From the NCBI GenBank assembly GCA_949741915.1, contig CATJOM010000048.1:186001-250000 (forward strand): a DNA stretch of 64,000 nt, read 5' to 3'. A program made the translations under genes and the position numbers. The number at the start of each line of letters is the position of its first letter. Within the stretch, counting starts at the first letter, position 1. Shown in pieces: positions 30,319 through 55,963 of the stretch. This DNA is from an uncultured Candidatus Melainabacteria bacterium (GTDB lineage Bacteria > Cyanobacteriota > Vampirovibrionia > Gastranaerophilales > Gastranaerophilaceae). A model generated the notes under the pieces. It was not told where the DNA came from. It saw only the letters and a program-made list of their open reading frames with translations, and searched no databases.

Positions 30319-31356
30319 ATGATGAATAATAAAATAAAAATCTTGATAATTTTAACAGCAATATTTTTAATCGTACTGAGCGGATTAAATCTAATGACAA
30401 CCGCCAGGGATAAAGCAAAAAACATTCCCCTGAATGATAGCTATTACGGCCAGGATATGTATACACCGGCTCTGCCTCTTTTGTTTGAAGATTTAAAGAA
30501 TGAAGTTGTTAAGGGGCCAATCAAGCTTCAAGGATATGATTCGCATATAATTGATACAATAAATTCTATTGACCCGCCAACAAACAGGCTGGATGAAAAA
30601 TATTACTATAAAATAGTTGCAAAAAGGCTGCCTGAATATAAGAAAATTATAGAAGATGCCATTTGGGAAAAATTCAAAGAAAAAAGTAAACTCATTGATA
30701 AAATTGAATGGACACCGGGCAATGCATATCACATTGTTTTATATGCCATGGTAAAAAAAGATGTTGAATTCATGAATGAATTTGAGATTTTAGATACGTC
30801 AGCATTTGATAATTCTAAAGATAAATTTAAATATTTTGGCATAAAGGATAAAAACGACAAGCTTAAAAATAATGTAAAACCGCTTTTTTATAAGGATAAA
30901 GACAACTATGCCATTTTACTGCATACAAAAACTAATGATGAAATAATTTTATATAGAGGAGATATAAACAAACCGGTTAATGATATCTGGAAAGATGTAA
31001 AAAAACGAATAAACCAAGACGAAGAACGTTTTAGTGAAATTGATAAGCTTATGGTACCATTTATTAATTTAGATAATATGTTTGAATACAAAGAGCTTGC
31101 AGATAAGCAAATTCAGAATACCAATCTTATTATAAAAAAAGTTCTTGAAAGCGTAGAATTCAAGCTTGATAATAAAGGTGCAAAGCTAAAAAATGAAGCT
31201 TTAATGCTGATAGAGCGCAATGCTGTAGCCATTGATTTCATAAAACCAAGATTTTTCTATTTTGATAAGCCTTTTGTGTTATTTATGAAAGAAGCCGATA
31301 AGAAAAATCCTTATTTTATGCTAAAAATTAAAGATACTGAATATCTTGTAAAATAA
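30319..31356 (+). CDS. Membrane-anchored hypothetical protein
   Basis: 345 residues. The N-terminus (KIKILIILTAIFLIVLSGLN) is a signal anchor or uncleaved signal; the rest is hydrophilic, Lys/Asp-rich and probably periplasmic. No motif recognised. GGAG lies before the twin ATG (30319/30322). It follows the GT4 gene by 18 bases and is closed by a good terminator, so the two may work together on an envelope glycan. That is inference from position only. Confidence 0.7.
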   Translation: MMNNKIKILIILTAIFLIVLSGLNLMTTARDKAKNIPLNDSYYGQDMYTPALPLLFEDLKNEVVKGPIKLQGYDSHIIDTINSIDPPTNRLDEKYYYKIVAKRLPEYKKIIEDAIWEKFKEKSKLIDKIEWTPGNAYHIVLYAMVKKDVEFMNEFEILDTSAFDNSKDKFKYFGIKDKNDKLKNNVKPLFYKDKDNYAILLHTKTNDEIILYRGDINKPVNDIWKDVKKRINQDEERFSEIDKLMVPFINLDNMFEYKELADKQIQNTNLIIKKVLESVEFKLDNKGAKLKNEALMLIERNAVAIDFIKPRFFYFDKPFVLFMKEADKKNPYFMLKIKDTEYLVK

Positions 31357-31375: not shown

Positions 31376-31420
31376 AAATCTCTGCCAAAACAAGACAAAA
31401 TATTGGCAGGGATTTTATAT
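31376..31420 (+). terminator. Terminator after GT4 operon
   Basis: A 13-base stem (AAATCTCTGCCAA with TTGGCAGGGATTT, one G-T pair), a 14-base loop and TTTTATAT. Confidence 0.75.
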
Positions 31421-31496
31421 ATACTTTTACTCTGCAGGCTTGTGTATCTATTTAGACAATTATACACAAAAATATTGATTTCTTTCTTGCAATAGA

Positions 31497-31578
31497 AGTC
31501 CCTATGTATAAAAAAGAACGTTCTAAATAAGTTTCCTGAAAGTGAAACTCATCCCGTTCTTTTTTATACATAGGGACT
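31497..31578. repeat. Inverted repeat, two perfect 24-bp arms
   Basis: Arms 31497-31520 and 31555-31578 are exact complements around a 34-base centre, which has its own AGTTTC/GAAACT stem. The left arm begins AGTCCCTATG. It lies between the convergent GT4 operon and the GT41 gene. It could terminate the leftward gene, be a small mobile inverted repeat, or encode a hairpin RNA. A promoter-like block (TTGATT...TTGCAATA) precedes the left arm. Confidence 0.85.
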
Positions 31579-31628
31579 GGAATAAAAAGAAGCATTTAAT
31601 AAACAAGCATAAATGTATATAACTGCCT

Positions 31629-33623
31629 TTATTTATTACAATAATCCATCCAGATTTTTCTGTATGTATTTTCAAGCGAAAGGGTAAAACCCTTGTAATC
31701 TGTCAATTTTGAATTAAATAATTTTTCTCTTAAACTTTTTCTGTATTCTGAAATTAAATCAGGATTATTAATTAAATCAAGCGCATTCTGGATATATCCG
31801 TCAAAATCAGGTGTAATAAGCTTTATTTCGCCAATAGCCTTTAATATTCTTGAAGTAGGTCTGGATGTTGCGTTGTATCCTTCTAAACACACAACAGGAA
31901 GTCCCATCATAATACAATCCATTGTAGTGCCTGTGCCGGAATATGGATAAACATCAAGTGCAAAATCAGCACAAGCTATAGCATTATAATGAGATCCCTT
32001 GGCTTTCTCCATAAAAATAATTCTGTTTTCTTCAATGTCATGCTTTACAAATTCTTTTAATATTCGCTTTTGATTATTTTTAGTGTAATAGTTTATATAC
32101 TGAAATAAAATTTTAGTATTTTTTGCCTTTTTTAATATCTTGGCCCAAACCTCTAACATCTCATTTGTTATCTTTGCAACGGCATTAAAAACACCCATTG
32201 TAACGTATTTATTTCTTATATAAGGTGCCTCGGTTATATCAGATAGTCCATTAGCACTTTTTTCAATAACTTCGTATCCAGCCTCAATCCAAGCTGGTTT
32301 TTCTGTATAAAGCCCCTCTTCGCCGGGTTTTATAGTATCCTTATCCGTTAAAATATAGTCAATAGTATCAAGACCAGATGTATTTGGATAACCAAGATAT
32401 ACACACTGAACAGGCGCCGGCTTCTTGGCTAAAGTCATTACTCTAGTGTCACCCGTGTGAATATTCAAATCAACAAGAATATCAATTTCATCTTCATAAA
32501 TTTTCTGTGCAAGCTCATCAATAGGCATTTGATTGCATTGTATTAATTTTTCTGAAAGTTTTTGATAAGTCTCTGTAACATCATCGAAATTTTTTGATGT
32601 CATATACATATAAATTTCAAAATTTTCTTTATTATGATTTTCAATTATCGGCATTAAAAACCTTGAAACAACATGATGATATAAATCAGATGATAAATAC
32701 CCTATCCTTATTCTTTTGTTTGGATTTTTATTTCTATCATTAAAATTGAACGCACATTTTTTAATACCCAAAGTATTTATATAATTCTCTACAAGCCTTT
32801 CTGTTGTTTCTTTTATTTTCTTTTGACTGTATGGCGCCATCTTAAGGTAATTCAGCATATATGTTGCAATTGGAAGATAATAAGCAGAATCAATTTTAAA
32901 AACCTTTTCGCAAGCCTTTGCACACTTTTTGTGTAATCCTAAGTTGTAATACTGGCTTGCAAGACTAAGCCAGCTAAATTTGTCACTTTCTGCCTTTTTT
33001 AAATATTCTTCATAATAATATATGCTTTTATCAAAATCCGATAAATCTTTGGTACAGTAAAGCCCGGCAAGAATTTTCTTTCCTTCCTCATAATTCTTAT
33101 CAAGAGAAAGAACTTTCTCGTACGAATCTGCTGCCTCTTTTTTGGCATTTAATGCATCAAGAATTTTTGCAAGGGTAAAATTCACAAATATATCATCTGG
33201 ATTATAAAGATAAGCAGATTTTGCAAACTTGAGCGCTTTTATAAAATCCCGGGCTGTATATGCTTCATTTGCCCACTCTTTGTATATCGCAGCAAGAAAA
33301 GTGTAAACTTGCCTTATTAACTTTAAATCTTTATATTTTTTATTTGAAAATTTTTCGACCTTTTTGGCATCTCTAAATTTGCTTTTAGCAATAGTTAAAT
33401 CCTGCTTATTTAATACTCTTTCGTATTCAAATTGGCTTATAATATCTTCATATATGTTGTTTATAGCACCGAATAGGTTTATGCAATCGTCGTACTTTTT
33501 ATCATAAAAAAGTTTCTCTATGACATTGGCATATGATTTAAATATTTTAAACCACTCATCCATATTGTAAGCATTGATTTTTTCATTACCCAACGCACAG
33601 GCAGATAGATTATTATTTTCCAT
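31629..33623 (-). CDS. TPR-GT41 glycosyltransferase (OGT/SPINDLY-like)
   Basis: Residues ~100-260 hold TPR-like repeats (e.g. AYLYNPDDIFVNFTLAKILD), and ~300-660 the GT41 catalytic domain of O-GlcNAc-transferase type. Visible: KRIRIGYLSSDLYHHVVSRF with the conserved HH, KPAPVQCVYLGYPNTSGLDT, DYILTDKDTIKPG, FNAVAKITNEML, and SGTGTTMDCIMMGLPVV with the donor-binding Gly/Thr run, then SRILKAIGEI. Bacterial members modify proteins such as adhesins or flagellin; the substrate here is unknown. 664 residues, single gene, no signal peptide, so it acts in the cytoplasm. Confidence 0.88.
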   Translation of the reverse strand: MENNNLSACALGNEKINAYNMDEWFKIFKSYANVIEKLFYDKKYDDCINLFGAINNIYEDIISQFEYERVLNKQDLTIAKSKFRDAKKVEKFSNKKYKDLKLIRQVYTFLAAIYKEWANEAYTARDFIKALKFAKSAYLYNPDDIFVNFTLAKILDALNAKKEAADSYEKVLSLDKNYEEGKKILAGLYCTKDLSDFDKSIYYYEEYLKKAESDKFSWLSLASQYYNLGLHKKCAKACEKVFKIDSAYYLPIATYMLNYLKMAPYSQKKIKETTERLVENYINTLGIKKCAFNFNDRNKNPNKRIRIGYLSSDLYHHVVSRFLMPIIENHNKENFEIYMYMTSKNFDDVTETYQKLSEKLIQCNQMPIDELAQKIYEDEIDILVDLNIHTGDTRVMTLAKKPAPVQCVYLGYPNTSGLDTIDYILTDKDTIKPGEEGLYTEKPAWIEAGYEVIEKSANGLSDITEAPYIRNKYVTMGVFNAVAKITNEMLEVWAKILKKAKNTKILFQYINYYTKNNQKRILKEFVKHDIEENRIIFMEKAKGSHYNAIACADFALDVYPYSGTGTTMDCIMMGLPVVCLEGYNATSRPTSRILKAIGEIKLITPDFDGYIQNALDLINNPDLISEYRKSLREKLFNSKLTDYKGFTLSLENTYRKIWMDYCNK

Positions 33624-39604: not shown

Positions 39605-39625
39605 AATCTTTATACAATAAACCAA

Positions 39626-39665
39626 TTACAGCCTTTATCAAAGAAATGATAAAGGCTGTAATTAT
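39626..39665. terminator. Hairpin between convergent repeat-protein and nuoN
   Basis: 16-bp perfect stem (AATTACAGCCTTTATC and its complement) with an 8-base loop between two converging genes. T runs are weak on both sides, so it is a likely but not ideal bidirectional terminator. Confidence 0.65.
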
Positions 39666-55548: not shown

Positions 55549-55963
55549 GCATTACTTGCGTGCTATAATTTGGCATTTATATACAATTTTACACAAAAAG
55601 TTAATTTGACTTTTTTCTTGCAATAAAATGTCTTGTACAAAAAACTTTGGGGATGGTAAAAGCCTATTAAAACATTCTATTTTGCATATATTACACAGAA
55701 TATGGAAAAAATTCTTTTGGCAAACTAGTATAAATTACATATGAGTGCCTTAATTTATCGTTAGCATAATACTTCGCCAAGCAATAAAGCATATGCCATC
55801 AAAAACCGAAATAATATCTACCTGCATTGAAATATGGCTTTAAAAACAAAGAAGAAATAGTTTATTTTACTTTTGTTTGTTTTGAAGTACTAGTTAAAAT
55901 AATAGCAAAACCCAGGCAATATTTCATCCCTGGGTTTTATAAACTTATTCTTTACTGATTTAA
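55549..55963. other. Gene-free interval
   Basis: No gene. A block at 55584-55628 resembles the block before the inverted repeat at 31457. A TGCTATAAT (~55560) and TTGACT (~55606) look like promoter parts but lead to no frame. The terminator at 55907-55938 lies at the right end. Confidence 0.4.
55907..55938 (-). terminator. Terminator after pseudopilin gene
   Basis: AAAACCCAGG and CCTGGGTTTT, 12-base loop, A and T flanks on both sides. Confidence 0.8.

Follow-up and report, generated by a model that had tools for sequence, protein, structure and literature searches.

A perfect palindrome of exceptional length lies between two genes of an uncultured Candidatus Melainabacteria bacterium, in the 64,000-nucleotide stretch of DNA analysed here (the window), and it raises the question of whether such a structure is a hairpin RNA, a transcription terminator or part of a mobile element. 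Its two 24-bp arms are perfectly reverse-complementary and flank a centre of 34 bases:

31497..31520, plus strand: inner left arm of the perfect 24-bp inverted repeat (repeat search)
31521..31554, plus strand: 34-base centre with a nested stem (RNA folds); its orientation relative to the ends is reversed in four other copies
31555..31578, plus strand: inner right arm of the perfect 24-bp inverted repeat (repeat search)

No longer perfect inverted repeat occurs in the window at gaps of up to 200 bases (the runner-up has 17 bp), and about 1.3e-7 such 24-bp repeats are expected by chance in the window with gaps of up to 60. The next-longest, at 39624-39663, has 17-bp arms and a 6-base loop. The predicted RNA fold of the hairpin reaches -43.2 kcal/mol on the plus strand (z -9.5), with a nested inner stem visible, and -48.2 on the minus strand (z -8.6). 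Outward of the arms the inverted repeat continues imperfectly (37 nt, 84%). The first-pass annotation of this DNA had described exact 24-base arms far above chance and a second stem within the 34-base centre, and both observations are borne out by the repeat statistics and the folds. It had also taken 31497-31578 as the extent of the feature; the arms are real, but they mark only the middle of a larger element, as homology between copies runs past both of them.

The same annotation had proposed a search for further copies, and in the window's own genome (G000, a 2.45 Mb draft assembly of 126 contigs, 97.95% complete) these proved to be many. A search of this genome gave 34 matches, and one with a full-length copy as query gave 65; merged, the two sets define 41 distinct places, with 22 copies of at least 120 bp and the others shorter or decayed. 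The homology beyond the arms was delineated by blastn with wider flanks and by an alignment of 26 stretches, 25 from this genome and a weak one from another (G009). The full unit measures about 180-193 bp in G000 (the longest copy about 193 bp) and is bounded by 23-bp outer terminal inverted repeats, GGYAATTATATACAATTTTACAC, which match at up to 23/23 positions at both ends; most long copies have the 23-bp ends on both sides. The subterminal sequence is of two kinds, CACAAAAATATTG... at the A end and CACTTGTTTATTAAATGTTTTC... at the B end. Within the window the family is represented as follows:

31453..31627, plus strand: 175-bp copy of the element running from A end to B end, worn on the left (full-length copy L017:92-281 matched to G000:C48:217453-217627; copy alignment)
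31453..31467, plus strand: what remains of the outer terminal repeat on the left, its inner 15 bases with 2 mismatches, the outer 8 lost or changed
31605..31627, minus strand: right outer terminal repeat (B end), worn, 16/23 consensus positions in an ungapped comparison
31447-31454: candidate left target duplication TCTATTTA, 7/8 against the right copy (by eye, tentative)
31628..31635, no strand assigned: possible right target duplication TTTATTTA (by eye, tentative), overlapping the minus-strand stop codon at 31629-31631
55572..55644, plus strand: second, decayed fragment of the family, A end only (L041; G000:C48:241572-241644)

No ORF of at least 80 aa is present inside the window copy. Thirteen copies with both ends placed, one of them short and one with its right end set by the alignment, were examined for flanking duplications: 82 of 104 positions of the paired 8-mers match, against a shuffled mean of 51.5, and none of 5000 shuffles was as good. 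The optimum is sharp at 8 bp, with nothing at lengths of 4-6 or 10-12. Four of the thirteen pairs are identical and two agree at 7/8, and one copy (L020), with 2/8, has no duplication. The left-flank 8-mers are 92% A+T. In one other genome (G001) the upstream gene order is kept and no copy of the element is present, but the downstream neighbour was not found in the stretch compared, and a clean empty site was not obtained. The family is thus gene-less and multi-copy, with terminal repeats and target duplications, which are the features of a MITE, and the element that contains the hairpin is a MITE. A miniature element had been among the options of the first-pass annotation, and the 41 places, terminal repeats and 8-bp duplications show that option to be right.

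The outer end provides a link to a transposase family. With up to 3 mismatches the 23-mer occurs in 66 of 288 genomes of the same family, the reversed control being near zero, and the exact 23-mer is found in 25 stretches of public genome contigs, including those of Chryseobacterium, Alistipes, Bacteroidaceae and a Candidatus Gastranaerophilales record. In several of these stretches and family members, pairs of ends about 140-300 bp apart delimit other MITEs with other interiors. Chryseobacterium jejuense (L063, L065, L069, L077, L080, L084) and Alistipes (L083, L104-L107) contain such miniature elements with exact or near-exact 23-bp ends. Related end types (GGGAATTATATACAAGTTTACAC, GGGACTTATATACAAGTTTACAC) were also observed in several same-family genomes (L089-L093, L099, L101), where many bound elements of 140-300 bp with exact 8-bp repeats.

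A large element in the same-family genome G245 (L086:533-6202; G245:C2:59432-65101) spans 5670 bp, has near-identical ends (21/23) and an exact 8-bp duplication, AAAAATTA, and encodes a 323-aa IS1595-family transposase (PF12762, E 4.5e-43). Its passenger is a 1072-aa type IIG restriction-modification protein (Eco57I methylase, TaqI_C). Searches with this transposase gave matches in 27 of the 288 genomes. A window-type end (at least 18/23) was found at 8 of the 30 transposase loci retrieved, in seven genomes (G245, G272, G103 with two overlapping loci, G304, G021, G128 and G300), and is absent at that threshold from the other 22. The window-type end accompanies most of the closest transposases and is missing from most of those at 44% identity or less, with G304 (41%) as an exception. 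In G316, G320 and G128/G318 the exact 23-mer has sequence of a PF12762 transposase beside it: in G128/G318 a transposase fragment lies about 270 bases away, and in G320, a Bacteroidaceae record, the 23-mer immediately precedes a transposase ORF of 304 aa, which has, in addition, a sub-threshold IS1595 zinc ribbon. Directly after this transposase is a 377-aa ORF (L139:2024-3157), RhuM-like by eye, which may be a passenger. Of 13 genomes with the exact end that were scanned for PF12762, 6 gave a match, over the cut-off in five; no PF12762 transposase was found in three Chryseobacterium genomes or in the Alistipes genome.

Two candidates for a parent or an intact relative were set aside. A 2146-bp Alistipes stretch between two terminal repeats was dropped, as its ORFs were read without encountering a transposase and PF12762 is unmatched in that genome. 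L146, with a transposase beside an exact end, is taken as a remnant because a second end is unrecognizable and the transposase ORF starts late. None of these loci proved to be a complete autonomous element that combines both ends with the subterminal sequences of the MITE, those of G316 and G128 being remnants and that of G320 having been read at one end.

Taken together, we are highly confident that the hairpin forms the central part of a MITE moved by an IS1595-family DDE transposase encoded elsewhere. An IS1595-type transposase would bind the 23-bp ends GGYAATTATATACAATTTTACAC and, acting in trans, insert the unit of about 180-193 bp into AT-rich targets, with the 8-bp duplications left by insertion. 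The case for IS1595-mediated movement in trans comes from comparison of sequences: the ends are shared with IS1595-family elements and the 8-bp duplication is AT-rich. In G000 neither PF12762 nor a tblastn search with the G245 transposase gave a match, and no autonomous parent was encountered by these searches or on reading round 20 places, most of them lone terminal repeats or copies at the edge of a contig. This absence is weak evidence, because IS copies are often missing from draft assemblies, and to our knowledge a relic MITE does not require a partner transposase in the same genome. As no source transposase is detectable in the window genome, the copies, including that in the window, are probably now immobile and decaying.

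Other origins of a repeated palindrome are far less probable. The extragenic, palindromic and multi-copy nature of the family would agree with a REP-like or BIME-type sequence spread by a RAYT (Y1) transposase; but the long outer terminal repeats with 8-bp target duplications are indicative of DDE transposition and not of Y1 activity, leaving this origin only the slightest probability. A structured small RNA standing alone, or an intrinsic terminator that serves the minus-strand gene and is present once, is in our view scarcely more probable, although the strong fold on both strands and the position just after a stop codon speak for these readings. Rfam at gathering thresholds gave 0 matches in the 64-kb window, which leaves the hairpin-RNA option of the first-pass annotation without support; near the hairpin there is no sigma-70-type promoter-like site above chance, and the sequence recurs at 41 places and shows outer terminal repeats and duplications. 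A stand-alone RNA gene is rejected on the missing Rfam match together with the transposon anatomy, and the repetition of the sequence led us to discard a single-copy terminator as its primary identity.

A different question is whether copies of the MITE have acquired a role at their present positions. The window copy sits between a 345-aa ORF (stop at 31356) and a minus-strand TPR/glycosyltransferase-41 gene whose stop codon, 31629-31631, is 1 base from the element. The 345-aa ORF (30319-31356) matches Serpin below threshold (E 1.1e-4; 22.1 bits, cut-off 27), and its homologues occur in 27 of 59 genomes, a count that includes the genome of the window. In the flanks of the 22 long copies, mechanical calls of ORFs of at least 240 nt found one in 35 of 44 flanks, the other 9 being omitted, and 26 of the 35 callable flanks point the 3' end at the element (binomial P about 0.003; hand count). 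Where both flanks were called (13 copies), seven are convergent, six tandem and none divergent.

The two inner arms, too, show a pattern out of the ordinary. Of 21 copies searched for arm pairs, 17 were used and four dropped because one arm could not be located. The mean difference between arms is 4.1 edits within a copy and 5.6 between copies, and none of 20000 shuffles matched this, though kinship among the 17 copies may inflate the test; the outer ends are without such coupling (3.5 against 3.7, P 0.33, 11 copies). Over the stretch compared the arms are identical in four copies, namely that of the window and those on contigs C46, C69 and C74. In C69 an unusual C run in one arm is answered by a G run in the other, and in C74 ATTTAT in one is matched by ATAAAT. 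The centre is reversed relative to the A end in C46 (L017), C69 (L025), C74 (L019) and C101 (L031), and forward in most other scorable copies. Many copies now have no inner arms.

These patterns allow the reading that the element arrived as a MITE and was kept as a terminator or 3'-end stabilizing hairpin for converging genes, here the glycosyltransferase gene. The predominance of 3'-facing flanks, the lack of divergent pairs among the 13 copies, and the likeness of the arms within a copy while the outer ends are uncoupled all speak in its favour; yet avoidance of promoters alone yields an equal bias in placement, palindrome correction during replication can match arms without selection, arms have been lost from many copies, and the upstream plus-strand gene seems to own a hairpin at about 31382-31415 (by eye). 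The first-pass annotation had noted T/A runs inside the arms as unlike a usual terminator. A-tract, stem and T-tract is the expected order in a bidirectional intrinsic terminator, and that argument is weak. A simple pattern scan, admitting loops of 3-8 bases only, finds no terminator at the hairpin and counts against a terminator role. We consider it doubtful that the element was kept for such a role. A more specific form of it, which we likewise regard as rather unlikely, would make the inner palindrome the working part: copies would persist at the 3' ends of genes because they terminate transcription in both directions or protect 3' ends as hairpins, while recurrent correction of one arm by the other, or flipping of the centre, would keep the arms alike independently of the outer ends. 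Arm correction or inversion at replication explains the likeness of the arms and the flipped centres without function, selection for the hairpin being the alternative; inversion between inverted repeats is described for whole insertion sequences (PMC3004938). The placement at 3' ends fits the purging of promoter insertions as well as it does a terminator role. The copies may have a role as 3'-end hairpins or terminators, and if they do act as terminators they would illustrate in simple form how the remains of transposons can reshape gene 3' ends.

The origin we favour, a MITE moved by an IS1595-family transposase, accounts for dozens of repeats in the genome of a poorly studied gut lineage (its GTDB family includes a Candidatus Gastranaerophilales record). 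It ties them to IS1595 transposons and to miniature elements of Chryseobacterium and gut Bacteroidales with letter-identical 23-bp ends. MITEs, and IS1595-derived MITEs among them, are already known; among the matches listed in the open-licence literature we found no earlier report of this family.

The nearest autonomous relative, the G245 transposon, resembles the MITE in its ends (21/23), its exact 8-bp duplication and a host of the same GTDB family, but is 5.67 kb long, with transposase and type IIG restriction-modification genes and an unrelated interior. The MITEs of Chryseobacterium, Alistipes and rumen/gut Bacteroidales (L063-L085, L104-L107) share the exact or near-exact 23-bp end and a spacing of about 140-270 bp between ends; they differ in their interiors and in belonging to another phylum, and no such inner arms occur in the stretches read. 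The ends of the Correia, ERIC and RUP/BOX/SPRITE elements are presumably different from those of the window family. Among published properties of the IS1595 family, 8-bp duplications are usual (PMC8101967) and ISEc69 duplicates AT-rich 8-mers (PMC7835479). In Haloquadratum walsbyi a MITE of the IS1595 family (165 bp, 7 copies, IR 25, DR 8; partner ISHwa6), listed in PMC3852290, is similar in size, terminal-repeat length, 8-bp duplication and IS1595 partner, this likeness being one of description and not of end sequences, and differs in its archaeal host and fewer copies; the listing mentions no nested inner palindrome. Likewise by description (PMC10969869), Correia, ERIC and RUP/BOX/SPRITE are short, multi-copy and intergenic like the window family, mostly palindromic with stable stem-loops; some alter transcripts, and for ERIC a position at the 3' ends of genes is reported.
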